From: Gonapodya prolifera JEL478
Taxonomy: Eukaryota > Monoblepharomycota > Monoblepharidomycetes > Monoblepharidales > Gonapodyaceae
Assembly (NCBI GenBank): GCA_001574975.1
Contig: KQ965790.1
Coordinates: forward strand, 69,676-133,675
DNA: 64,000 nucleotides
Direction: 5' to 3'
Notes under the pieces: generated by a model
Told to the model about the DNA's origin: nothing
The model's database searches: none
The model's input: only the letters and a program-made list of their open reading frames with translations
In this document: piece by piece, positions 4,159-54,740 of the stretch
Numbering within the stretch: position 1 is the stretch's first letter
Layout of the letters: each line of letters starts with the position of its first letter
Program-made: the position numbers and the translations under genes

Positions 4159-4227
4159 TTTGTAGAAACTGCAGTGAAACGGAAATTGAATGTTTTGGTC
4201 ATTGAAACCGATCGTTTCGCCAATGGA

Positions 4228-6598
4228 ATGTCCACCATCACACCCACGCTGACCACGACGACCACGAGCGGCTCAAGCTCCACGTCGAGCGTCGCCTTAC
4301 CGACCCCTGCGCCGACGCCGGTGCCCGGATATGTGCTGACAGCCCTACGAAACCAACGGGAGCTTTCCTCCACATCAATACCCATCGACAGGGTTCCACG
4401 CCCCGCTCTGTCGCTCTCAGCGTTTTTTAATGGGGCATATCAGTCGGCGAGGATAAGGCAGATTCGGGCTTTATTGGACGCGGGATACCGAACGTTATTC
4501 GTGGATCTGTATTGGGATGGGGTAGCTCGGACGCTCCAGTTATGTCCCGTGGCGTATCCACTACCGACAGTAACGGCTACTGCGAGTACTAGTGACGCCA
4601 CCGTGGCGCCTACCACAACCACCTCGACGACGTCTGTAACAACGTCGGTCACAACTACATCCCGAAACGTTACGTCGACCACATCTGGAAACTCGACATC
4701 ATCGTCGTCATCAGCATCATCAGCGTCGGGATCACTCGCCTCAAATTCCACCACCAGTTCGACGACCTCCTCGCGCAGTGCATCCACGTCCTCCACAGTC
4801 TCCTCTGGTACCATCACTTCCCAAACATTATCGCCAACCTCCTCTCCATCTCCTACTCCCGACACCGTTATTTCCAACACTATCTGCCCATCATCACCGT
4901 ACCACCTCGACCTCTTCATTGCAGCTCTTGATGCGTACGTATCGGACTCATGGGCACCTTTCTACGCGGACGTGATCACTGTTGTAGTGAATGTTCACTC
5001 CGTGTCCGGAGGTCGAACAAGGAACTTGCAGAACGTTAATGTCACAGAGGTTGCGCTCCAGATGGCGGACAAAGGTGTGGCAGGATCCTTTGGCGATGTG
5101 ATGCGGAAATATTTGGGAGGTAAGTCAAGAAGTCAAGTTGTTTCAACGGTGTTCGAGGAACCGATAGGCATTGAACTATGCGGGAAACCATTTTCCCTTA
5201 TCTGCATTACGCTCATCTAATCCACTGGCCATTTTAGCCAGTGTCTTCACTCCCACCGACCTCTCCGCTGCGCGTCTTTCTCTCAACACCACCCTCGGTC
5301 CCTCACCTTACTATTCCTTCTCCGTATCGCCAAGCACCGGCCTTGCGACCTCCACCTCCGCGTGGCCAAATCTAGAGTACCTCCTTACCAACCGAAAGCG
5401 AGTCATTCTCGCCGTTGCTTCGGTAGATGCCGATGCCAGCTCCTCGGATGGTGGAAGCACAGGCGGCTCCGCATATAATGTGTCGGCGGATATAGGGTCG
5501 ACGTTTCTGGGGACTGAACTGGCTGCGACTCCAGTGTGGACAAGCTCAGGTGCGGCGAATGTCAATTGTTCGTATCCAGTAGATGGCGTGGCGATGGTGG
5601 GAACTGGTGAGTTTCTACGGGCGGGTCGCGAAGAGTTCGTTTTCGGGCAATGGAAAACGTGAACCGTCGTGATTGCTTGACCCTTCCGACAGGAACCGAA
5701 AGCTCTTCCCCATCCACTGTTCCTTCTGGCTGGACGGCAACTTCTTGGTCCTTCGCCCGTGTCTCTGACCCGCGGAGCTCCGCTTACCCGCCACTTGCCC
5801 TTCTGAGCGCATCCTCTTGTGGTTTCTTTCCGCTGATTCAAAGCCCTCTTTCCCCTCTCGTACCGTCTTTCAACTCTTCTTCCGTTGGTAATGCTACCCT
5901 CTTTCCATCGGCGTCAGCCCTTTCATGGGATCCCGGGCTCCTCGCAAGTGCGGTTTGGAGCTGGGACTGGGGTATGCCGGTGAACCAAACACGATCAGGA
6001 GGGGCTGTGGGAGATGGAACGGTGAATTGCGCGGGGATGCAGCGGAACGGGAGGTGGACCGTTGAGAGCTGCAACGCGGTGCGGTTGGTTGCGTGTCAGG
6101 GACTTCAGAAACCGGAGGATGTGAGTAAACATTAGAAAGTGTGGTCCAAGCAAGACCTATCGCTGATCGTGTTACTATTGATTTCAGTGGCTCATTCCCA
6201 CCACTCCTGCCACCTACCTTGACGCATCCAAAGTCTGCCCACCCACCCATGCGTTTTCTGTACCCCGCACACCCCAGCAAAACCGCGCCCTTCTCTCCGC
6301 TCTTCTTGCTCTTCCCTCCAGCCCGACAACCTCTCTTGTCCTCCTTGATTACAATGATCTTGCATCGGACGGGTGCTGGGTCGCCGGGCAGAACCCATGT
6401 CCCTACGTGGACCGCAACGCCATCATCCGCGAAATTATCCAGACTAGTTTTCAGGAGGGCGTGGCGGTTTTCGTTTTAGCGGTTCTTTTTCTATGGTTCA
6501 AGCTCAGGAGACAGCTTCGGCTTGTCAGACTGAGGCGGAGAAGAATGGATGCCAGGAAGAAACTCAGAGGGATGGAATTTCAAAGCGTGCCTGCGTGA
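4228..6598 (+). CDS. MTC6: MTC6-like membrane glycoprotein (maintenance of telomere capping protein 6 family)
   Basis: MTC6 proteins are fungal type I membrane glycoproteins of poorly known role, named from a yeast telomere-capping genetic screen. The diagnostic block is here: IPIDRVPRPALSLSAFFNG, then LLDAGYRTLFVDLYWD, then LCPV. A roughly 110-residue Ser/Thr-rich insert follows, then TPTDLSAARLSLNTT and a cysteine-containing luminal region ending NRQ-type GRWTVESCNAVRLVAC. A single transmembrane helix (EGVAVFVLAVLFLWF) and a short basic tail finish the protein. Introns are near 5120-5234, 5607-5691 and 6121-6187. The reading frame is open upstream of 4228 but lacks another ATG, and no signal peptide is visible after ATG 4228, so a first exon may be missing. 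The ATG lies only 69 bp past the stop of the MYST gene. Confidence 0.82.
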
Positions 6599-17436: not shown

Positions 17437-17949
17437 GGGGTCATCAACAAGGGATGGGAATGGGTTAGACTTTACGTTTCGAATTTCGTTTTCAGCTCAA
17501 AATAATCAAAGACAAGAAAATGTACAAATTTTAAGAATGGTAAATAAAAAGTGGATAAGTACACTAAATGGCGATTGGATTCACGCAGTCGTGTGGTGAA
17601 GGGGAAGGGGAGCGAGATGGGGGGTGGAGAGACCGAGACAGTGGCAGAGAAAAAAAGAGAAAAAAGGGAAGTGCGACCGTATTCCTATATCAGTCAGGGG
17701 GACTGAGTTTGATCAATTTTTAGCCGCAGACCAGGAGTGACGACAGCAACACTGCGCCCAACACTTCCCACATAGTCTGGCAGTCCAGCCCCAAAGGAGA
17801 CCTGGCTTGAGAAGTACTGGTGTGATTTCGGCACAGTAACTCTCTCCTTCTTCCCGCACTGTCCACAGAGCATTCACCGTGAGCAGGACCGCATACGTCA
17901 CACTCCTTCCGTCTCTGTTTCCTCCCTTTCCGCCCACCACTTGGCTCCC
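17437..17949. other. Intergenic region
   Basis: About 510 bp between two plus-strand genes, with a purine-rich stretch (agaaaaaaagagaaaaaag) near 17645-17670. No gene is seen. Confidence 0.45.
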
Positions 17950-19994
17950 ATGAAACACCGCAAAAGACGCTGGCCCCGACCTCCACTCCCGCTCCAATCC
18001 CTGCCTGTAGAAATCATTGTTCACATCGCTCACTTCTGCACTTTCCGTCTCGCCTTTCCTACAAAAGCCCTCAACCGCAGTCTCGCCCACATCTTTCAGC
18101 ACCACTCGCGCGGAATTGCGCGCAGGGCCTTGCACCACTTCGACAAACCCACACATGCTCTATACTATGAAGCTGTCAGAGGCTGCTCCGCCGTCGTGGC
18201 TTTGCTGTGCCCCTTGGTCGTCGTGAATGCCATATTCAGGCTCAGCGAGCGCACCGAGCTTTGCGCGGCGCTCTGGGTGGCATGTGCGCTAGGGCACTGC
18301 GACACCGCCCGCGTGCTCATCACTCACGGGGCCGACGTACACCTGCGCTCGGACCAGGCCCTCTTGAATGCCGCAGAGGCGGGGCACTCTGACGTGGTGG
18401 AAATGCTTTTTCAGCATGGCGCGTTCGTGAATGCTCAAGCCGGTGAGGCGCTCAGACGAGCCGTGGTGGATCGGCGCATGGATGTGGTCCGCGTTCTGCT
18501 TTCGTGGAGCACAGCGTTGGATGCCACGTCGGTGGACGTGGTTGACACGGCAATGGTCCGGGGGTTCGACAAGATCCTGGCACTGCTCCTTGCCCATGCG
18601 GGCCGGCAGATAACGTGGATGGGGGGACCAATTTCTGGCCGGGAAGGACGCCTCCAAAGGGCTGCTGGACGAGGTTACAGTGACGTCGTCTCAGCCCTCC
18701 TGACACACGTTCCATTTACCAGCCAATACAAGTCCAGCGCGCTCTTGTACGCTGCAAGGAATGAACACAGGAACATTGTCGACCTCTTCTTGTCTCACGG
18801 CGTGGACACGCGGGACTACTCCGTCCTCAAAGCACTCATCATAGTCGCAGGTTCCGGATCCCTCTCCATCGTAGAGGTACTTGCTCACGGTGGCGTCGAC
18901 ATACACGCAGACAACGACTCGGCACTGATCGGGGCGGTACACAGGCGGGTGGATCGACATGGTCCTTCTGCTCCTGAACCTGGACACTGCGGCGACGGCA
19001 TTTGACGTGGACACCGACTTCCTCCTTGTACGCGCAGCTGAGATGGGGTTTACAAAAATCGTGGTTATGCTGCTTGATGGGTTCCAGACCAGGTTCACGG
19101 CCAAGGCCGTGTACGCCCTCCTGCGGGCAGTGATGGCAGACCAGCACGAGGTTGTCAGCACGCTCCTGAACGCGCGTCTTCGCGTGTCCCAGAGATACTT
19201 GCACGACGCACTCATGAATTCGTGCACGGCGGCTCTTGGCGAATCGAGCGGGGACGCGAAGATTGTTGCCATGCTTGTGGACTACGGGGCCGACGTACAT
19301 GCTCAGGACGACTTGGTACTTATGAACGCTTGTACTGCCGGGAATGTGGAAGCGGTCAAGGTGTTGCTTGGTTACGGGGCAAACGTGCATACGAGGTCCG
19401 ACGAGGCATCGCTGACTGTTGCGGCAATGAAGTCAAGCAGAGTCGTTGATATTGTTGCCACACATTTGGCTCACGGTGCAGACGTGCACGCTCAAGATGA
19501 TTTGGCACTGAGGAACGCGTGTTCGAAGGGGCATGCGGAGATTGTTAAGATGCTACTTGATCACGGTGCGAACGTGCATGCAAAGTCTGACGAGGCGTTC
19601 GGGACCTCTGTGTCAAAGGGCGAGTCGAGCAGCCACATGGAGATTGTTGCCATGCTTGTGGCCCATTGGGCGGATGTGCGCAAAAGATGATTTCGCACTG
19701 AGGAACGCCTGTGCTCAGCGGCACGTGAAGGCTGTCAAGGTGCTGCTTGATTGGGGTGCGAACATGCGTGCAATGTCTGACATTGCACTCTGGACTGCTG
19801 TTTGGTCTCGCCAAAAAGCTATGTGGACACTCCAATTGGACAGAATAACGTGTCCTTCAGACAAGCCTCTCGCGATTGCGAAGACCAAAAGTGTGGTTGT
19901 GCTGCAGGTTCTCTTGGAGCATGATCGGGTTGTCAATGAGGTGAATGGGATGCAGTGGTGGAAAGCATGGAGAAACAGCTGGCTCTTCGTATAA
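17950..19994 (+). pseudogene. F-box-like ankyrin-repeat protein gene with two frameshifts
   Basis: The N-terminus (MKHRKRRWPRPPLPLQSLP then VEIIVHIAHF) resembles an F-box-like segment. It is followed by at least ten ankyrin repeats, seen as recurring phrases such as HCDTARVLITHGADVHLRS, HSDVVEMLFQHGAFVNA and HAEIVKMLLDHGANVHAKS. Such proteins usually act as interaction scaffolds or ubiquitin-ligase adaptors. The repeat series crosses three frames. One shift is at about 18936-18945 (a one-base change within the GCGGTACACAGG region), the other at about 19675-19686, where a copy of the phrase ADVHAQDD has lost two bases. No GT-AG intron of suitable length and phase explains either shift. The last repeats (19300-19800) are nearly identical to each other, which suggests recent duplication. 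It could be a decaying pseudogene or an intact gene with sequencing errors. Confidence 0.7.
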
Positions 19995-37100: not shown

Positions 37101-38882
37101 TCATGCACACCCTGCGACTCGCTTGCCTTTTACGTACACGTCTGCAATGTTCCTATCATCACCCAGGTTGATAAACTTCTCGACCCACATTTCTATCCGC
37201 TCAATGTCGGACTCCGCACTGTCCGCGCCCGTTTCAATTCCTGCTCCTGTTCCTGCCCCCCGCTCTTCCTCGAAAACATCCCAACTGGTGTCCCAGGACG
37301 GGTTGACGTCAATCAAAAGCGCGTCGAATTCCTTCCCCCACTCGAAAGTGCCAACATGTTCGTCGAGTGAGAGCGCCTTTGCGCCTCCCAGGGTGGCGAG
37401 GTACAGCGCGTCTTTCCATGAAATGACGGGGGAGGGGGAGTCAGCCGCAGGTGCAGCCGTTTTGGTCGACTCGGTGATCGCGGCGGCGGCGGCGGCTTGT
37501 GCCTCTGCCACCAACCTATTCGAAACCTCGATCTGCCTCGCGTTCCCCACGGCCCACCGCATGGCCTGCACCAGCGTCGTCAACGGCCCCCCAGCGACGT
37601 CCGTGCCAAGCCCGACGTCGACGTTTTCACGCCAACACCGCTTCACGTCCAAATTCCCGTGCGCGAAGAACACGTTGCTGAGAGGACAACACGCGACGGC
37701 CGCGCCCCGCTCAGCCATGAGTTGGAGGTCCGCGGATGTTAGGTGGACCCCGTGCGCCATGACGGCCTTGTTGAGGAGGCCGTGGGAGTCGAAGATGCGC
37801 GCGTCGGAGCCAAAGTGCTGTGGAGAGTCGAGAGGGTACATGGACCGCGTGAACGCGACTTGGTCCAGGCTTTCGGAGATGTGGCTCTGCACACGCACGT
37901 TGTGTCGTGCAGCGAGCGCGCCGAGGCCAGCTAGAAGCGCGGGGGAGCAGGTTGGGATGAATCGGGGGGTGACGACGGGGTGGATGAGTGGGTGGGAGCC
38001 GCCGGGGAAAGAGGGGGAGTGGGGAGGGTGCTTGGCGTGGACGTAGGCGATGAAGGATTCGGTGGCGGAGATGGAGGCGGATGTGCTTTCGATGTAGAAG
38101 GAGGGGGAGTTTATGTCTGCGCACACCTGGAGGAATTTGATTGGTCAGCCTGAAGATCGCCGAGCTTAGACTGATGAGAGGGAGAGCGCACCTTTCCGAC
38201 ACACGCGCGCTGTCCGTACTCGGCGCAAATGTCTACCAGCAGCTTTGTCGGTTCCAAATCAATCGTGGCGAAGTAGAGTGCCGTCGTTGTGCCGTTCCTG
38301 TGGAGGTGAAAGAGGTCCCACGGGCCACGTCGAGTCGATACGAAATGGTATTGTACGGGTCACGTTAAGAGCACTGACTTGAGAAGACGTTTCACCAGCT
38401 TCCGATATACCTCGTCCGCAAACGATAGGTTCTTCATTCTGGCCTCGGATGGAAATGTGTAGTGGTTCAACCATTCCATCAGCGGTTTGTCTGTCGCACC
38501 TCCGACAAATCGATACTTTTGCGAGAGAGCGTTTGCGTTGTGTGCGTACGTGTGTTCGTGATGAGCAATCGGTTCCAAACGACTTTGCGAAATCCGCCCG
38601 GCGACTCACCTGCGGCGCATGGACGTGCGTGTCGATCAGCCCCGGCAGCAGAAACTGTCCTCTTGTGAGCGATTTCAGTTGAAACTGCGTGTCTTCCCCA
38701 ATACCCGACTGCGCCATCGCTGTCTTGACGGCATGATGCACGTCCTGGTCCTTGAGCTCCGAGACAAATGCGATGCGACCCGCGCCATCGACGCCCACGA
38801 TCGCGGATGGGAGGACGCACAGAGATCCGCGCGTGGGTGTGTGCACGACGGAACCGTGGAAAACGACAAATTGGGCAGACAT
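37101..38882 (-). CDS. Guanine deaminase (amidohydrolase family)
   Basis: This zinc enzyme converts guanine to xanthine and ammonia in purine salvage. ATG 38882 begins MSAQFVVFHGSVVHTPTRG. The first metal motif appears as LLPGLIDTHVHAPQ, followed after introns by PLMEWLNHYTFPSEARM and a segment that reads GTTTALYFATIDLEPTKLL in the joined frame. Later come VRVQSHISESLDQV with the zinc histidine, MAHGVHLTSADLQLMAERG, CCPLSNVFFAHGNLDV and the metal/catalytic aspartate in GLGTDVAGGP. The C-terminus GDDRNIADVYVKGKRVAGC is also family-like. An alanine run (near 37480-37500) and a Gly/Ala insert near the end are unusual for the family. Only two or three introns are needed, all in the 5' half (38140-38620). 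It runs convergent to the thiolase gene, 80 bp apart. Confidence 0.92.
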
Positions 38883-42073: not shown

Positions 42074-45000
42074 TCATGAGGCGCAAACAACGTCCTCATT
42101 GATTCGAAACGCGAGAATCTGTTCATTAGTAGCATCGGCGGCCTTCGGAATGTACTTTCCACCGCCAACGTACTTTCCAATCAAAGTACGGACACGCGCA
42201 GCGTGATCCAGGTTTGTGTAAACGTATATCTCGTCGCTCTGTTTCAAAAAGGATTGTGAGCATGGCCTTACGTGAAAGGAGCACTTTACAATTTGACTCA
42301 CTTCCCAGCACGCATTGCATCCAGGGAGTTTGCCCTCCACGATTGCATGGGCCACCTCGTCCCACGTGCTTCTTCCCGCGCGGGGGAGAACCCAGCAACC
42401 GCGGCGTCCGGAATTCGCTAAGCTGGACGCTTCAGAATTCCATATAAGCTGAGCTTCCGGGACCCCAACCGGAAACTTCAATCTACTCGGAGAGTAGGCC
42501 CAACGCTGACCGACGCAACGAAGTTAACTTGGGGAACTCTACAATGACCACAAACAGGTACACACCTCTTGACTTGAAGGGTGCTGGACAATAAAACTGT
42601 TCTCCGGCGAACGCTCCCGAGGAATGCCAATGAAAGGGACCACTGCACTGGGCTGCACCAAGGGAGCAACAGGCTCGGAATCCACTAGTGCCGGGGAGGT
42701 TACACTCTGTTCTACGTGCACCAACTTGTTGCTTGACAAGGTGTCGTTCTTGTTTGGCTCGAACGATTCCTCGTAGTCTCCCCCGAGGGTACTCTGTCGT
42801 GATGAAGAGGACCTAAGGCGTTTGAGTGGTATCGTATCGATCTCGACAACAAAATCCTCTTGATGTGGTCGCTTCAGTCGACGCGTCGAGTCCAGTGCTA
42901 CATCTGCTGATGCTGCTTGCTCAGTGGAAGCAGTGTTCGGTTGAATGTCTCTCTTGGAGGGAAGAGAACCCTGCAGGATCTTTGAAGGCGCATTAGCTTC
43001 AAGTGCCATCTGCGATCCGTCGTTTGATAGTAAAGCAACTGGAACCGCAACCGGTTGTGGTGGCATTCCTAGCGGCAATGCCGTTCGACCCGAAACAACC
43101 AATTTGCGAGGACTTTCCTCCCATGGCGCAGTCAGGGGATCGTCGTCTGTCACGTCGCCTTCGATATCCACGACTACATCAGACTTCGAGCTTAAGCGTC
43201 GCCGCTGCGCAGACTCAGATACAACAGGAGGGTGACTTCCCTGTGTGGAAGTGGATTTGGTTGACAAGCGCGAGGTGACGCGGGCGTGTGGTGCGCCACT
43301 ACTTGAATGTAGGGGCGTGTTTGATGTCAAGGATTGTGAAGCGTTCCCAGCATCAGAACTGTAATCCACCTTCGGGAACTTTCCTTTCCACAACGCATGG
43401 AACCGCCGTTTCGTGTAAAGAGGCAAATCCATTCGATAAGAAACATCTTCAGACAGCACGTAACGAGGTCTTTTATTCCCATTCTTCACTTCCTGCTTAG
43501 AATGAGACTTTCGGGGCCCGTGCTGAGTTTTTAGGCCTTTCGGATCCACCGTTTCGTACTGGGCTATAGGGTCTGAATCATCAACGATCGCCAAGTCTAA
43601 AGATTGCATGGACACTAGTGGAGTGCGTTCCCGAGCTGAGGATGCACTTTTGATGGTTCGTGTCAACCCCACCGTAGCTGCTGGTGTCGACCGCATCGTT
43701 ACTGGGTCATCTCTCTTCTGCAAGGATTCACCGACAGGCAATGTTACCTCTCGTGGCTTCATCCGGTTTTGTGGCTGATGCCTTTGTTGATCAGTAGAGT
43801 GTGGAGTACGTGTCTTCAAAGGCACCGCGTCCGAGGATTTGACACGCGAGGTTTCCACGACAGAGTTCCGGGGTGACGTCACATTCTGAGATTTCGACTT
43901 TTCTGCTCCCGATTTCGGTGTGGATTCGCCAAGAGGTTTCGAACTTTCTGCATAAATTCTTTTTTGTGCATCAGTCGAAGAAGGAGCAACAACAATGATT
44001 GGATCGTCTGTGTTCGAAACGATTTCACTATGATTTGCGGCGCTGGATTCTTGGGCTTTCGGAGGCGCCACGGAATCGAGGTCTTTGTTAGCGAAGATGA
44101 AACACAAAGTTTCAGAGCAGATTAACGGATGAGTAAACGAATAAGTCATAGAACAGGAGATCAGATAGTCACCGTTCGGTTTTCGCTGTTCCTTGACGTC
44201 GATTTCCACCTCGATCTCGTAAATGGGACGCTTTCTCATTGGTTGCAATCGTGGACGATGTTTTGAACCCGGCGTGCCTACTTCGGCATCCCGTCTCGGT
44301 TGACCGATCGGTTCTTTGCCAACTTCATTGCTCTCGGTATTCACGACTTTTGATCCTTTGTCAATTTCTCCTGTCAAGTCCACGCTTTCATGCACAGAAC
44401 CTGCTGCATCTGCCGCTTTTGACAAATAGTTTGATGCATCAAGTGATGGCTTCGAGGGCGAGGGATATTCGGATTCTATCAAAGAGTTTGGATATACGGA
44501 AATGATTACAATCTTACTGTGAGCGGACCGATAGAAGACATACCTCTTCTGTGGTGGACTCTTTCGCGATGATTTGACTGGTCGCTTCCACGAGACGCAA
44601 ACTCCGAACTCGGTATCGAAATTTGATCCACAGAATCGACTCTTGCTCGTGAGCTGCTCTTTCTTTGCTCCACGGGAGGCAAGTTTTGGGAACTTGCACC
44701 GTGATCTATAGCTTCTGGATTTGACGCTACCCCTGTTGCCTTCTCTTCCCGAAATGAGGATGCTGGGGGGAGGGTGACCGGGCGTTGCGATGTGCTCGTC
44801 ACAGTGTCAGGCGACGACGGAACTGTTTTCGGCGACACTATTCCGATGACAGAGAGTGAGGACTGTTCCCGCGTGAACATTTGCTTAGCCTCACCTTCCT
44901 CAACTCTATCACTGCTCCCCTTTTTCGACTTTGTCTTCGCCCTGACCTTTGCTCTGCTCGGGGCCATGTTACTCCATCCAACATTTTTAGCTCTATCTTC

Positions 45001-48000
45001 TTGAGATCTTGTCGCGGTCGCCGAAGTGGTCTGAACAGGAGCCGATATTCGAATGGGAGGTGGAGGTGGAGCGGCTGAAGGAAGAGGAGGAGGGGCGGCG
45101 CTGCTAGTGGCGGTGGCATGGTCTGATTTCGCTTTCGTTCCTGTTGACTCCTGTGAGGAACGACGAAAATCTGAAGGCGGTGGCGGAGACGAAGCAACAT
45201 TATTTGAAGGCGATCGCACAGCGGTGGAGTCAGTTTGTTGTGCTACCCGTCTTCGACGAACAGTGGCCCCAGGTTGGAAAGGAGCTTGTGATTCAGTCAG
45301 TGGCTTCGAACGTCCTAGAGAGGGACTTGTTTGCGCAGGAGATGGGGTTTGGGATTGTCGCCGACGTGGTTCCTTGGAGCTTTCTGTTCCACTGAAGTCC
45401 CTCGGAGAATGGGACGCGGCACGACGAGTGCCTACATTTGTAGTTGAGCGAGGCGCTGGGGCGTCCCACGGAGGGGAGTTATCAGAAAGGACACCGTGCG
45501 TGGAGTCGATTGGTGTTGACGGATGTCGGCTTGTGACTGTCGTGATTGCAAGGTTCAGTGGAGGAGAGGGAACAGGCCTTGTTGAAAGCTGCAAGGCTCC
45601 CACAATATCATCATCAAGTGCCGGTGACCGCCACATCAACCCTTTACGCGGCTCGGCGGTTTGGGCCACTGTGTGAGTTACATTAATTTCGGCTGCTTTC
45701 AAGCTGGTCTCTGAACGCATTTTCACTGGCCGCGGTGCGCTGGTCTCTGTCGAAGCACGGTTGTTATGATTTGGATTAGTTTCACGCTCCACAATCCTGC
45801 GCACTCCAGGGTCCGACGTTCTTCTCGTACCAGGCGTTATGTGCCCTCCCATTGATGTGGAGCTTGTCGTTGTCGACGCAAGAGACACAGTTGGACTGTT
45901 AGAAGGGACTGATCCTTGCTTGTCAGTAGTTTTCGCAGCAGCAGGAAGCCTTCGCCATGTCGACTTGTACGGACGGCTAGATATTTGTTGACCTTCTTTG
46001 AGGTTCCCGATTACAGTCACACTCGGCTTGTCTTTGGGTTCCCCCAGGTCATGTGCCTTCTCAGGTGTTGAGGTTGAATCAGGTCGCGTACTGACATCGG
46101 CCTCCGGTTCCGTGTCTGATATTTCCTCAACTTCTACGTCACGCTGAAACAATACTACTCGCTTCTCGGGAACTGTAAAATCCACGTGAGAGACAACTGG
46201 TGCAGTTGGCACAGTCGTTGAAGGATGTCTAGGGGGTCGAGCAGCATAGTCCTGCGGCGAAAATGTATCGAGTGGAATGGGGTCCGACGGAGCGACTTCG
46301 GGTAGATATTCGGGCACAGGTGGAGGGGGGGGAAGGTTGATGGCAAGATGCCATACTGGACCTGTTTAGAAAAGCAATGTTAGAGTCCCTTAAAAAGCAG
46401 ATTTCTCAGCACAGATTGCCGATGTGAAGACAATGGTGCAGCCGTTCTCGTTTATTCCTTCTGCATTTGAACCAACTTACGTTCATGGTTTTTTTCGAAG
46501 TCCACTGACGAGAACGTACGTGCAGCACTTCTGTTCTTGTCGCTGGAAGCTTGTTCTGTCTCAGCGGTTCCGCTCTCTGCAACCCCCTGAACGGTGATAG
46601 TCGTCCTAACGTCCCCATTTTTTTGATTTTGCTTGGTGTCACCGTAGACATCTTTGAGAACAGCAGATAGCGCTCGACCATCGTGACGATCAAGATTGCT
46701 GATACTAGGGGTTGTGACAATGCCATGATCGGGGGACTCTTTGGATGGAAGCGACTTGGCTGTTGTCATGCCCAACCGAAGAACAGAGATATTGAGCGGG
46801 ATGAAGCGCTGAGGTGGAAGGAGCGGAGGAGGCGCAGGCGGGGAATGTAGAAGAGAGCGGCGGTGATCGATGCTTGCGTTAGGATCGACGACTTTGACAG
46901 GTCCAACAGCATTGGAGGATTTCCGAGGCGAATCCGGGGGTTCCACCACTCGCGAGGTGCCACTATTGCGAATACCCTCTAGTTGACTGTCAGCACCGTC
47001 GCGCCGTTGGGCCGTGTCCCGCTCGTGCTCTGAAAGCTGCCTCTCCTTCGACGCCGCAACTCCATGGGTGCTCCCAATGCCGCGTGAGTCGTCTGAATCC
47101 ACAATACCTCCAGCGATCGAGATTTTTAGGGTCATAAAAAGGTTTTTCGTGTTCTTTGACCGGTATTGGAACCGAATCAGTGTCTGAAATGAAACGTGAA
47201 GAGTCGTGAGGAAGGTCCATGCAATAACCGACGGAAACCGTCGGCCCACTTTCGAAAATCCAAACTAAACCCGTAGTCTTTGTCTGCGTTCAAGTAAAGA
47301 TCTCCGGTGGGTGTTTTCACCAACTTACGCCGGCAGGCAAACGCACCGAAATTGCCCCCTTGATCCTCGTGACGCTGACAGACCTGTCTCGCAGTCTTCT
47401 ACGCTCGATATCGTGATGCGCACGATGATTCTGTTGACTGGGTGTTGACCGGGAACTTTCAGGCACTTGCCCTCCAACGGACAATTTACCAGACTGAGAG
47501 TGCAGATTCTCCATCATCTTTTGTATATTCAAAACATCTCCTTTGTATTACCAAAGCCAAAATACTTGACTTCTTCTATAGATTATGTTGCTTTTCATTA
47601 ATCTTGGTTTCATTACGCGACGGCGTTCACTTGGAGCCCCACGAATCGCCAAACAGATTTCTGTCGGGTGACATGACGCAGAGAGTTGTTTCGGTGAGTT
47701 GAAGAAAGAGGATGAACGAGGGAGTTCGTCGCGAAGTCTGAGACACACATCAGTGCAAATATCCAACAAAGTTCACTCACTTATACGAATCATAACCTCT
47801 CCTCGGGGCAATCCTGACTTCTTGTCCTCCACCCGCAGCAGGCTCGCTTCCGAATAGAGACGTTTTGGGGTACTGACCGCCGCGAGTTGAACCGCCCGAC
47901 CAGGATCCAGAGGAACTAGCTCCGATGCTTGAGACTGGTGCCCAAAGTCCCATAGATGGTGGTCTTGATCCCCCATTGGACACCGACCCGGCTGCGTCTG

Positions 48001-49834: not shown

Positions 49835-52800
49835 ATGGCCGTTGACGCACAGCAACCTGCGCCCGCCATGGTCCAACCAACGAATGTAGACCAATTCGCT
49901 CGTCCGCCATTGCCTCCGCAACTTCTCCCTGGAATAGTCAATGTTGCTCAGCTGCTTGTGAACGGCGGAGCGCTCCCTCATCCGCAAATACATCCGCTTA
50001 CGAATGGAGTACACGGTGCTCACGACAGCACAGAAACTCGCGCCAACCAGGCGGTGTTATTCGCGGAATCGGTAGGTGCTTCCAATCCCCCAAACCCGGA
50101 GGCACCTTCTGGTTCTGGTATAAACGGCGCTGCTCCCGTGGAAGACCCTGACGCTCCTCCCCAACCACCTCGGAAGAAGCGTGGTCGGCCTCCCAAGTCA
50201 GCTCAGCAGGCGAGGTCTTCTTCTGCGGATCCACAACCTGACAATGATGACGACGGATCCGAGTATGCTTCCTCCTCCTCGGACGGCGAGTTTCAAGAAT
50301 CTGCGTACCTCAAGCGCCGTCGACTACGCACGCAGGGAGATGGGTCGGATGATGAAGCGGGCGGATCTGACAATGAGGCTGCAAAGTCTGACCCCGAGGA
50401 CAATATTGTATACCCTTCTGAACTCCCTCCTCGCACAAGGCGGCGACGAGGACGTCCACCCAGAGCTGGAGGAGTGAGTGACCGTAGACTGGACGGATCT
50501 GGCTCGGGAGTGGAAGGCGTAGATGGAGCGGAAGCGGGCGACGGTGATGGGGAAGGCGGCCTGGTCCCTCCCACGGGGAACCACATTCCCACACCTTTCA
50601 AGCGTCGTCGTGGTCGGCCACCGAAAAACGGGTTCTCTGCGCGCCCATCCCCCGCGCCAGCACCTGCACCTAAACGACCCCCAGATTTGGAAGACGACCC
50701 AGATTGGGGGGCACCCGACGACAAGGACGAGTGGGAACCGGATGGGTACGACGAGAAGGGGGAGGAAAAGGTTGACAGGGATGGGAATTTGACAGGAGGT
50801 AAGTAGCGTATTCAATGAGGTGTTCGGCACGGTCGATTCGGTGTTTGGGCCTCAAACCTTCATCGAGAGACCGCAACCCGTGGAGTTTTCTGTTGTCTGG
50901 GTATACTAATCGCTTGTGTTCTGGCCACGATGTGCGCTCCAGGCCGTCAATACCGCTGTCGCGTGTTCACCCTACCCCGCCATCCCACACGGCTCTGGAT
51001 GTTCACAATCGATGTCGCCAGGATGATGGGCTACAGGGACTCACACATTTTGTGTGAGTAGTGTAACTTCTTTTTGCTCGAAGAGCTTCAATACACTCAT
51101 CCTTGGTTGGGCAGACTTTAAACACAAGGACTTCCCTCGTGTCGTCTGTACCCTCCGTGACAAGAACCACCTGGTAGATTTGGGATTCCTGATTCCGCAA
51201 CTAAAGAGTCGCAATGTGAACCTGCTGCCGGCACGGGTCGCGTTCAAGAGATTCGGCTACGAGGTCATCAGGAGGGGAAAGATTGTTCGAGACGACTACT
51301 TTGTTGGAGACAGGGTTGAACCCCCGGACTCGGAGGTTAGTGGATCGGTGGATACGAATTTCGGGCCTGGCGGCAATTTGAATCGTTTTCTTCCAAGGTC
51401 CCGCCACTTCCCGACGACTTTTTCGTATCTCACATGAAACCCATGGGCGCTCGCCTTGGTGCTAATCCTGCAGCCGGCGAGGACGACCACCGTTCCGGCA
51501 CCACCGGATCCGCGTGGCGAGCTGCTCTTCCCCGACTTGGCCCTGGTGCCGGTGTCGCGGACAAGTGGCCGGGCTACATCACCAAGTCGGCCGCACAACG
51601 AAATGTCGCTCAAGCGTCGGAATCTGCCGCCGACTTCAATCGGAGGCTGAGGCTGGAGAGAGACCAGAAGGTGGCTGTAGGGAGGATCGACCCCCACACA
51701 GGAGTACTGCACTGGCCGAAGCTGTTGGCCCCGGTCAAGCTCACTGTGGAGATGGAGGCGGGAAAACTCGGTGGGGGCAGCTTGAGCAGCAGGGTTAAAT
51801 CCGAACCTGTCATGAAGATCCTCGAGGATGTTGTCGTCCGGGGAGAGAAGGAAAGGAAGGGCAAGTGGGTGAAGCTGGAACCCGACGTCGAAGACGAGAA
51901 GTACCCGCTGGCGATTATGGAGGGTCAATATCAGGGAATGTACTCTCTGTGAGTGTTGGGCCTTCCTTGTAAGCTGGGAAACGGAATGTCAATTCGCCCA
52001 TGGCAATAGGTTTCCCTTCCGTTTCGGTATGCAGCACCTTCTCGAGGGTGGTGCACATCCGGAGCAACCCGCCTCGGTATTTCTCCCCCAGATGGGACAG
52101 CTGGGACAGATGGGCCCCATGGTGCAGATGGGCTCAATGGTTCCTGGAATGCCTGGCAGCTCTCTCAGCTCACTCCCTCCCACTCCTGCTTCTCCTTACA
52201 ATGTCGCTGTCGTAAATGGCCAGTTTGTCAATATCTGTGGATATACTAGGTCGAAGGGAGGCGTGCCATGCAAAAGGATTGTTGCGAAGCAGGGTGATCG
52301 ATGTTTGTATCATGCTGACGTGAGTACTTGGTTCCAATGTGGCGACTTGTGAGATCATAATTGCTCACATTGACCGTGGCCCTCCTTCTCTGGCTTTTGC
52401 TTTCGCCCAAGCAGAATAGCCAACTCCTTGAAGGCATCCGTGCTGGCACAGTTCAGGCTGCAGCGGCCGCTGCTGCGTCTACAACGAGGAAAGGACCCGA
52501 ACCGACCAAGCCCTGTGTTGATTGTGGGAGCTTAGAGCCCCCCGAACCTCGGGAGGATGTGACTGAACCTGTTTCCGACCTCTTACTTCGCTGTGCGGTG
52601 TGCAAAAATGCTCACCACGCGTACTGCGCGGAATTGTACGCCCCCCCACTTCTGGCAAAGGTGACGACTTACCCGTGGCAATGGTAGGTTTTGCAATCCT
52701 TGGATTTCTTCTCCATGGCTCACAATGTTTGAAATCACAGCAACGATTGCAAACTTTGCGTGATATGCCGAGAAGCTGGGGACGAGAGCAAGTTGCTAAT

Positions 52801-53481
52801 GTGCGACGACTGCGATCGCGGTTACCACACCTACTGTTTGACTCCTAAACTCAACGAGACCCCACAAGGTGAGTAGTCCACAGCGACGTCGTTCCTTCGG
52901 TAGTACTTAATTTATTGACCTTTGGTACACCTTTTCAATCATGGAAGACGCTTGGGCATGCCACCTTTGCGCGTCTTGTTGGTCGTGTGGGGCGACAGGC
53001 AAACCTATTGCTTGGTTTCACCACGCAACGGTTCCCAATGTGGCGAAGCCGGGTCAACCGGACGTATACTTTGCGACTTACTGTCCTACGTGTTATGCTC
53101 ATTGGGAGGCAGAGCGGTTCTGTCCTGTTTGCGGCAAAGTGTACGCGGCAGACAACAACGACCTCCAGATGGTGTGTTGTGATCTGTGTGATCGGTGGGT
53201 GCACGTGGACTGTGATACGGAGCTCACACCGGAGAGGTATGAGAAGCTGTCGGAGGATCCAAATGCCAAGTGAGTCTTCCACGTTTTTATCACCAAGTGT
53301 GACTATCGCTGAAGCTTCACGGCGTCGCTCCAGGTATGCTTGCCCACTACATTCACCAAAAGTCGAGCGCGTGCTCAGCTCCGAAATGGCGAAGGGCGTG
53401 TACAAGAGACGTTATGGTGACGTCCGAGGGAAGAAAACCTTCCTACCTCCTGCCGCAGCTCCTCGCCCGGCTGCAAGCTGA
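49835..53481 (+). CDS. RSC7: RSC7/Swp82-like remodeler subunit with AT-hooks and PHD fingers
   Basis: Rsc7 and Swp82 are accessory subunits of the yeast RSC and SWI/SNF remodelers. ATG 49835 opens a Pro/Asp-rich region with three AT-hooks (RKKRGRPPK about residue 113, RRRRGRPPR about 203, KRRRGRPPK about 256). After an intron the RSC7/Swp82 domain starts: GRQYRCRVFTLPRHPTRLWM, MMGYRDSHILF, DKNHLVDLGFLIPQLKSRNV, FKRFGYEVIRRGKIVRDDYF. The later exons give PLAIMEGQYQGMYSL, HRFPFRFGMQHLL, and NICGYTRSKGGVPCKRIVAK. Cys/His-rich segments follow: CVDCGSLEPPEP, LRCAVCKNAHHAYC, LLMCDDCDRGYHTYCL, and DAWACHLCASCWSC. The last finger is PVCGKVYAADNND, MVCCDLCDRWVHVDC. These form at least two PHD fingers. 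Yeast Rsc7 lacks them, so the fusion is of interest. Introns are numerous and short. Confidence 0.88.
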
Positions 53482-53715: not shown

Positions 53716-54740
53716 ATGCCCCCCAAGAAGCGAGGAAACGCGGCCCCGAATGATGCGAAAACCGACGAGACTCAGCAAAATACTGATCAAGTAGCCGGAT
53801 CGAAGAAGAGACGTGCTAGAGTGGATGCCGATGGGACCGAATCTGATGGTGATCACAAGCAGAAGAGCCCAAAAGCAAACAAGAAGGCGAAGAGCGAAGA
53901 TCCGGAGAGAAAACCGGGCGAAAAGATGTATTGGCTAATGAAAGGTGGGACCCAGAGTGAGGGGAGAGCAATCTTGCCTCCAACGAAGACCTATTGAATT
54001 CAAATTTTCCCGCAGCCGAATGTGACACACGAGTCGTCAATGGAAAGGACGTCAAGTTTGATATTGACGATTTTGAAGCGATGGGTGCATCCCCTTGGGA
54101 TGGCGTCAGGAACTTCGTCGCTCGAAACATCATGAGAGATCGAATGAAGCTGGGCGATCTTGTTTTCTTTTACCACTCAAATTGCTCTGTACCAGGAATT
54201 GCGGGGGTATGTGAGGTGGTTAAAGAAGGTTACCCAGACGGTGAGGACTCTTGAGTTGAATTTGGTGGGAAAGTGCATACTTATGTAATTCTTGTTCGAA
54301 CAGAATCCGCTTTTGATAAGAATCATCCATACTATGACCCAAAGTCCGATCGCAAGAACCCGAAGTGGTTCCGCGTCGACGTGAAGCTGCTGCATCGGCT
54401 CCCTCGATTCGTTCCTCTGGCAGAACTCAAGCTTTACGCGACGCCCGAATCTCCCGTGCAGCCCCCTCCCTTGGCGGAAATGATGCTCGTGAATCGAGGA
54501 AGGCTATCGGTGCAACCCGTGCGGGCGACAGAGTGGGAGTTCATTACCGCGCTGGCGGAAAAGGATCTAACCGACGGTGTAGTCCTCAAAGGAAAAGGCA
54601 AGGGTTCTAAGAAAGCGAAGGAGGAGAGTTCAGGAAAAGAGGAGGATGAAGCGGACGAACAGACGGTTGACGAAGTGGTGGACAAAAAGAAGGCCGTTAA
54701 GAGACCACGCGGCAGTAAGGAACGGACTGGTGGTACTTGA
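53716..54740 (+). CDS. EVE-domain protein, THYN1-like
   Basis: EVE domains resemble PUA and YTH folds and bind modified bases in nucleic acids; THYN1 is the eukaryotic nuclear member. ATG 53716 begins a Lys-rich, disordered N-terminus of about 75 residues. The domain follows in three exons: EKMYWLMK, then FDIDDFEAMGASPWDGVRN, FVARNIMRDRMKLGDLVFFY, HSNCSVPGIAGVCEVVKEGY. It continues FDKNHPYYDPKSDRKNPKWF, RVDVKLLHRLPRFVPLAELK and ATEWEFITALAEKD, all close to THYN1. An acidic/basic tail (about 55 residues) ends at 54740. Introns lie near 53944-54014 and 54240-54302. The N-terminal and C-terminal charged tails are likely nuclear targeting or interaction regions. Confidence 0.9.

Follow-up and report, generated by a model that had tools for sequence, protein, structure and literature searches.

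A CRC-domain gene with AT-hooks and three PHD fingers as a probable SMARCG subunit of an early-diverging fungus

The gene considered here lies on the plus strand at positions 49835-53481 of a 64,000-nucleotide stretch of fungal DNA (contig KQ965790.1, positions 69,676 to 133,675; this whole stretch is referred to as the window). Its product, named CRC-PHD protein in the following, is very probably a SMARCG subunit, the family that equates Rsc7/Swp82 with DPF/PHF10, from an early-diverging and probably zoosporic fungus, with a PHF10-like layout and a likely role as nucleosome-reading arm. The sequence places it in SMARCG as it carries both a CRC domain and tandem PHDs of the DPF kind. From the amino to the carboxyl terminus the order is AT-hooks, CRC, Req helix, YP-GQ block, CCCH motif, double PHD, zinc knuckle and a KMT2A-like third PHD. 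The family itself was delineated in PMC9170682 (2022), which unites animal DPF1-3/PHF10, fungal Swp82/Rsc7 and plant TPF1/2 under the name SMARCG.

Gene organization and domain content

The gene and the elements of its product are the following.

49835-53481, plus strand: CRC-PHD coding region, 9 exons, 1,007 amino acids (splice model, GT-AG ends, frame)
49835-50798, 50943-51053, 51115-51335, 51398-51948, 52010-52319, plus strand: exons 1-5
52415-52683, 52741-52868, 52948-53269, 53334-53481, plus strand: exons 6-9
50174-50197, plus strand: AT-hook-like KKRGRPPK, residues 114-121 (RGRPP core read directly)
50441-50464, plus strand: AT-hook-like RRRGRPPR, residues 203-210 (RGRPP core read directly)
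50603-50626, plus strand: AT-hook-like RRRGRPPK, residues 257-264 (RGRPP core read directly)
50726-51308, plus strand: CRC (Rsc7/Swp82) domain, residues 298-423, split by two introns (Pfam, PDB sequence search)
51566-51721, plus strand: Req-like helix segment, residues 489-540 (motif common to DPF2 Req and PHF10 SAY)
51902-52013, plus strand: YPxAxxxGQxQ block, residues 601-617, crossing the intron 51949-52009 (common to the end of PHF10 SAY)
52233-52313, plus strand: CCCH-like motif ICGYTRSKGGVPCKRIVAKQGDRCLYH, residues 691-717, between the YP-GQ block and PHD1 (weak zf-primase match)
52514-52750, plus strand: PHD1 of a DPF-type double PHD, residues 753-812 (Pfam, PDB sequence search)
52757-52970, plus strand: PHD2 of the double PHD, residues 815-859 (Pfam, PDB sequence search)
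52977-53120, plus strand: zinc-knuckle-like linker, residues 862-909 (comparison with provisional KMT2A and KMT2C letters)
53121-53352, plus strand: PHD3, residues 910-965, KMT2A PHD3-like (Pfam, PDB sequence search)

After removal of eight introns, which measure 57-144 bases each and are all of the GT-AG type, a single frame of 1,007 residues is open from the ATG at 49835 to the stop at 53481 with no internal stop. The intron 52320-52414 joins the half coding for CRC to the half coding for the PHDs, and the frame stays open through the intron. On the sequence, it is much more likely that the two halves form one gene, with a predicted single transcript, because CRC and PHDs occur in a single protein in other fungi according to PMC9170682. 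That two adjacent genes were misjoined, a CRC gene that ends at about 52350 and a separate PHD gene whose start is in exon 5 or later, is most improbable. Exon 5 does have Met codons, at residues 644-663, and these count in favor of such a split and against a single gene, since an internal start is possible there and could give a PHD-only product. The frame and the GT-AG ends nevertheless run across the intron 52320-52414, no stop terminates the CRC part earlier, and a scan of the frame between residues 664 and 828 finds no in-frame Met, so that PHD1 (from residue 753) is left without a start of its own close by. The published combination of CRC and PHD in one fungal protein argues likewise against two genes.

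The CRC_subunit family (PF08624) is matched at residues 298-423 with E=1e-35, its 123.5 bits being far over the cut-off of 25. Among PDB sequences the CRC part finds three of the Rsc7 type (E 4.9e-26 to 2.5e-22), one of them entered under the name "Nuclear localization protein", as well as SWP82 in two sequences (E 4e-6). The PHD family (PF00628) covers three stretches of the whole protein (E=6.1e-21). The AT-hooks are described as RGRPP cores read directly together with a sub-threshold family match, because Pfam AT_hook reaches 15.5 bits on two stretches and its cut-off is 17.4. The zf-primase match of the CCCH-like motif (E 0.0097) is also under the Pfam cut-off. The first-pass annotation of this DNA had described one plus-strand gene with three GRPPK/R AT-hooks, a clear RSC7/Swp82 domain and at least two PHD fingers, and had advised a search of the spliced protein against RSC7 and PHD profiles. 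This search returns both families; the gene stands as a single open frame of 9 exons, the three hook cores are located, and the count of PHDs becomes three, the third reaching E=1.7e-7 when it is taken alone.

Req helix and YP-GQ block shared with PHF10

Between the CRC domain and the PHDs, the likeness to human PHF10 (BAF45a) is stronger than in the CRC part. Residues 489-540 share the motif [FY]-N-x-x-L-x-x-E-R ... D-x-x-T-x-V with the Req of human DPF2 (query letters confirmed at 79/79 positions) and with PHF10 SAY. In pairwise comparison of this segment with DPF2, the score is reached by 10 and 5 of 2000 shuffles. A two-row profile of CRC-PHD protein and DPF2 retrieves, beyond DPF2, only ZNF224 (E 0.85) and the two PHF10 sequences (E 0.86, 0.90), and the PHF10 matches fall inside SAY. 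Set against a profile of PHF10 and DPF2 the segment scores 30.0, for shuffles at 8.3 +/- 1.7 with a maximum of 13.5 (0/400).

Further towards the carboxyl terminus, YPLAIMEGQYQ pairs with YPVALIPGQFQ. Against PHF10 alone, the score of the block containing the FN motif, in the region from CRC onward, is reached by 43/2000 shuffles and that of the YP block, in the carboxyl-terminal part, by 18/5000. The FN and YP blocks taken jointly, in the same order as in PHF10, score 88, while shuffles score 45.3 +/- 6.0 (0/10,000) and the crossed pairing 39; note that the division into these two blocks was made after the alignments were seen. These comparisons strongly indicate, at the level of sequence, that the FN-L-ER motif corresponds to the Req helix and the YP-A-GQ-Q block to the end of SAY. 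SAY and the CRC-PHD protein are colinear, and the tests favor homology: the Req helix, the YP-GQ block and the double PHD follow each other in the same order in PHF10. Drosophila SAYP is grouped with PHF10 here, the likeness being read from the PHF10 sequence alone.

Two negative results count against this assignment. Pfam DPF1-3_N does not match the CRC-PHD protein at E up to 10, and a three-row FN/YP profile retrieves 14 PDB sequences with no Rsc7 or Swp82 among them, its best match beyond its own rows being MAX (E 0.046). As the profile did not retrieve Rsc7 or Swp82, the FN/YP motifs are not shown for Saccharomyces; a stretch AAEFNRTL is visible in the Rsc7-type chain 23fj, in an alignment of negative score. 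The Req segment used alone finds one unrelated PDB sequence only. The resemblance to Saccharomyces Rsc7/Npl6 and Swp82 consists in the CRC domain. DPF1-3, on the other side, share the Req motif and the double PHD, but no DPF2 chain was matched by the CRC query or profile and the CRC-PHD protein lacks a match to DPF1-3_N.

CRC domain and the winged helix of SAY

Part of SAY is a winged helix that INI1 has as well, as shown in PMC4509781, whose main text has 0 occurrences of Rsc7. The relation of this amino-terminal part (SAY-N) to CRC was assessed with human PHF10 letters that are identical to 7y8r at 236/236 positions. A profile of five CRC rows aligns with SAY-N at an hhalign score of 20.0 over 83 columns, for shuffled SAY-N at 11.1 +/- 2.0 (1/400 reach the score). 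The alignment spans columns 46-133/136 of CRC and 17-113/115 of SAY-N, the first third of CRC being uncovered. When the first 70 residues of SAY-N are combined with 45 residues of INI1, the CRC profile scores 26.1 over 50 columns, and shuffled columns give 10.4 +/- 2.1 with 0/400 at that value. Decoys were 190 six-frame translations, mostly non-coding. One was removed in advance for containing a CRC word, and a second, which scored 51 since it holds 16 residues of the query, was left out afterwards; 0/188 of the remaining translated stretches reach 20.0 and the best attains 18.0. In a search of 24,736 Pfam families the 105-residue SAY-N brings up INI1_DNA-bd (E 2.1e-7) and, under the cut-off, CRC_subunit (E 0.063), and no other family. 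The chains 23fj, 23cp and 6k15 choose the same register on SAY-N, though their pairwise scores are not significant.

A number of observations weigh against a relation. Taken singly, CRC sequences show no significant alignment to SAY-N: their scores are reached by 1394 (CRC-PHD protein), 879 (23fj), 246 (23cp) and 1041 (6k15) of 2000 shuffles. The probabilities given by hhalign itself are low, 4% for the 83 columns and 37% for the 50 columns. The longer SAY query of 236 residues lists six Pfam families and CRC_subunit is not among them, while Herpes_MCP (for the long SAY query) and Lectin_C (for DPF2), both unrelated, attain E 0.005, a better value than the 0.063 of CRC_subunit. Searching the PDB with the CRC profile up to E=10 does not bring up PHF10. 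In the PDB, PHF10 SAY matches beyond itself snRNP protein B (E 0.18) and INI1 (E 1.0), and no Rsc7. A structure model of exon 3 alone, made without alignment, has a mean predicted local distance difference test (pLDDT) value of 43.4, which is too poor to use.

Taken together, CRC and SAY-N probably have a real but distant relation, seen by profile and not pairwise. The CRC evidence is modest, and without the other blocks it would be too little to carry this relation. The first-pass annotation had put forward homology between the SAY and RSC7 domains as an inference and had named a lack of profile-level similarity as its disproof; this disproof did not occur, with evidence on the CRC side that is modest, weak and confined to profiles.

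The competing view is that of PMC9170682, which records SAY in animals alone and CRC as specific to fungi and explains the family by Req, CRC, SAY and Tudor domains having been added separately in individual lineages. SAY and CRC would then be independent acquisitions, and their likeness a convergence of small winged-helix-like folds or chance. This view is in line with the non-significant single-sequence alignments, the failure of the CRC profile to retrieve PHF10, the low hhalign probabilities and the better scores of unrelated Pfam families, and it is considered unlikely on two grounds: the profile alignments over 83 and 50 columns beat shuffles and decoys, and both proteins have the same order of blocks followed by PHDs, with two of the blocks strongly supported. 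SAY and CRC may accordingly be read, from their sequences, as one inherited module. A published statement of SAY-CRC homology was not found in a search that had most subscription literature outside its reach.

The PHD cassette

The PHD part was compared with PDB sequences at E up to 0.001, and what follows refers to the best 60 of the 74 sequences matched. PHD1-2 are of the double-PHD kind, with matches to DPF2 (8.2e-25), KMT2C (3.4e-19), PHF10 (1.3e-18) and also DPF3; DPF2/DPF3 score above KMT2C. The KMT2D records 9yl3 and 9yle span all three PHDs when the whole PHD part is used. No PHF10 counterpart is matched for PHD3, a difference between PHF10 and the CRC-PHD protein. The best PDB matches of PHD3 are three KMT2A PHD3 sequences, 2kyu, 7zey and 3lqh (E 6.6e-9 to 3e-8), and it is likened to KMT2A rather than KMT2D because PHD3 alone did not retrieve 9yl3 from the PDB at E 0.01. 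Its last zinc ligand is His in place of Cys. The knuckle and PHD3 score 162 and 140 against KMT2A and KMT2C segments of mostly provisional letters, for shuffles at about 35 (0/2000 each) that allow for the cysteine-rich composition and not for common PHD ancestry; of the KMT2C segment, only the first 11 of 88 residues were matched to the MLL3 record 2ysm. By these provisional letters the layout PHD-PHD-knuckle-PHD may be common to the KMT2 proteins, whose KMT2C double PHD and KMT2A PHD3 provide the matches. The CRC-PHD protein differs from the KMT2 family in having no SET domain among its Pfam matches at E up to 1.

The H3K4me3 cage of KMT2A, formed by Y1576, M1585, Q1587 and W1594, has its Y, M and W kept in the aligned PHD3 and Q replaced by C. 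As three of the four residues are kept, PHD3 is predicted to read H3K4me3.

These features raise the question of whether a fungal Rsc7 acquired the cassette, or its third finger, by fusion with part of a KMT2/Trithorax gene instead of inheriting it from a common SMARCG ancestor. Such a capture would explain the KMT2A likeness of PHD3 and of the knuckle as well as the third finger without match in PHF10. It is judged a poor candidate, in view of the better scores of PHD1-2 with DPF2/DPF3 than with KMT2C (8.2e-25 vs 3.4e-19), of plant members named triple-PHD proteins in PMC9170682, and of the genome, in which a second triple cassette was not found and only two partial PHD matches lie elsewhere.

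Genome context

Genome searches used an assembly of 47.6 Mb in 207 contigs, in which the window belongs to contig C60 and a missing match does not prove absence. One CRC gene (2 exon matches) and one triple-PHD cassette are found; the cassette accounts for 3 of 5 matches, and the remaining two are partial PHD matches on contig C7. SNF5 domains on three contigs, C64, C95 and C51, show that SWI/SNF-type genes exist in this genome; fungi usually have one or two SMARCB-type genes. A single match to the INI1 winged helix (E 0.38, contig C65) was rejected as chance because C65 is not among the SNF5 contigs C64, C95 and C51. DPF1-3_N likewise has one match, under the cut-off (E 0.69, contig C176) and outside the CRC-PHD gene, and 1/14 prokaryote controls matched too. 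RFX has 0 matches in the genome and none anywhere in the search, so that a PBAF-type ARID2 is not assignable. Two scans for relatives in viral contigs gave 5 and 1 pattern stretches, none of them confirmed.

The radial-spoke protein family has 8 matches on three contigs, 7 of them over the cut-off. Dikarya are not known to have radial spokes. The matches suggest a zoosporic fungus outside Dikarya, and the fact that they belong to one marker family tells against leaning on this placement. A Dikaryan origin, which would have conflicted with PMC9170682, was weighed and is not favored. DUF6533 has 0 matches in this genome, in a search that matched nothing elsewhere either and so does not show its absence, and 5.8S rRNA likewise has 0 matches, which leaves no placement by rRNA. 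The assignment to fungi is drawn from the CRC domain, given as specific to fungi in PMC9170682.

An exon coding an EVE domain is found directly downstream of the CRC-PHD gene (53961-54251, plus strand, E 2.7e-22). Elsewhere in the window, two long overlapping open frames of 755 and 619 amino acids at 42542-46365 on the minus strand have no Pfam match at 0.001, a frame of 409 amino acids with ankyrin repeats occupies 17776-19002, a match to the MTC6 TIM-barrel family is found at 4159-5217 (E 2.6e-13), and an amidohydrolase frame lies at 37104-38144 on the minus strand (E 2e-27). Adjoining open frames in L009 (237-1124 and 2006-2395) carry SYADGAVVR and GYADGAVVR, respectively, which looks like a local duplication of a small protein family.

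Function and evolution of the CRC-PHD protein

The CRC-PHD protein most likely acts, as judged from its domains, as a peripheral nucleosome-reading arm of a SWI/SNF or RSC remodeller. In PHF10, just as in DPF2, SWIRM and SMARCB1 offer a groove that accommodates the Req helix; the winged helix and PHDs of PHF10 are reported invisible (PMC9741621). By transfer from PHF10 and DPF2, the Req helix of the fungal protein would dock to the Base at its SWIRM/SNF5 groove. Linker or exit DNA may be contacted by the AT-hooks together with the CRC winged helix. The double PHD would read the acetylated H3 tail, H3K14ac being bound by the double PHDs of MOZ and DPF according to PMC9813062, and the predicted reading of H3K4me3 by PHD3 would complete the arm.

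Such a gene is to be expected in a fungus outside Dikarya, and the combination of Rsc7 with PHDs was already described in 2022. Rhizophagus globosum and R. irregularis proteins (RgRsc7, RiRsc7) hold PHD, Req and CRC domains in one protein as well, according to PMC9170682; they are known here by that description and not by sequence, and the present protein is characterized by its KMT2A-like third PHD and its AT-hooks. The same source has Saccharomyces Rsc7/Npl6 and Swp82 without PHD as an exception among fungi and, in its discussion, Dikarya retaining CRC and not the tandem PHDs. The first-pass annotation had proposed both that a fungal protein with the two halves connects Rsc7/Swp82 with PHF10/SAYP and that the PHD part was lost in yeast; these ideas hold, and neither is new, both being already in print in PMC9170682. 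Saccharomyces Rsc7/Swp82 would descend from such a protein by loss of the PHD cassette.

Sequence evidence that SAY and CRC may be one inherited module was not found in print in the searches made; this evidence, with the matching of the two proteins piece by piece, and the KMT2A-like third PHD carried along in this fungus merit the attention of specialists. In a tentative scheme, somewhat short of an even chance, SAY and CRC are one module made up of winged helix, Req helix and YP-GQ block, which the opisthokont ancestor already had in one protein with a KMT2A-type triple PHD cassette; animal PHF10 later lost PHD3, DPF1-3 the winged helix and Dikarya the PHDs. If this is true, the CRC-PHD gene nearly preserves the arrangement from which the SMARCG subunits of opisthokonts started, and the KMT2 PHD cassette and the SWI/SNF reader arm have linked origins. 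The scheme of separate SAY, CRC and Req gains in PMC9170682 would then need revision as well.

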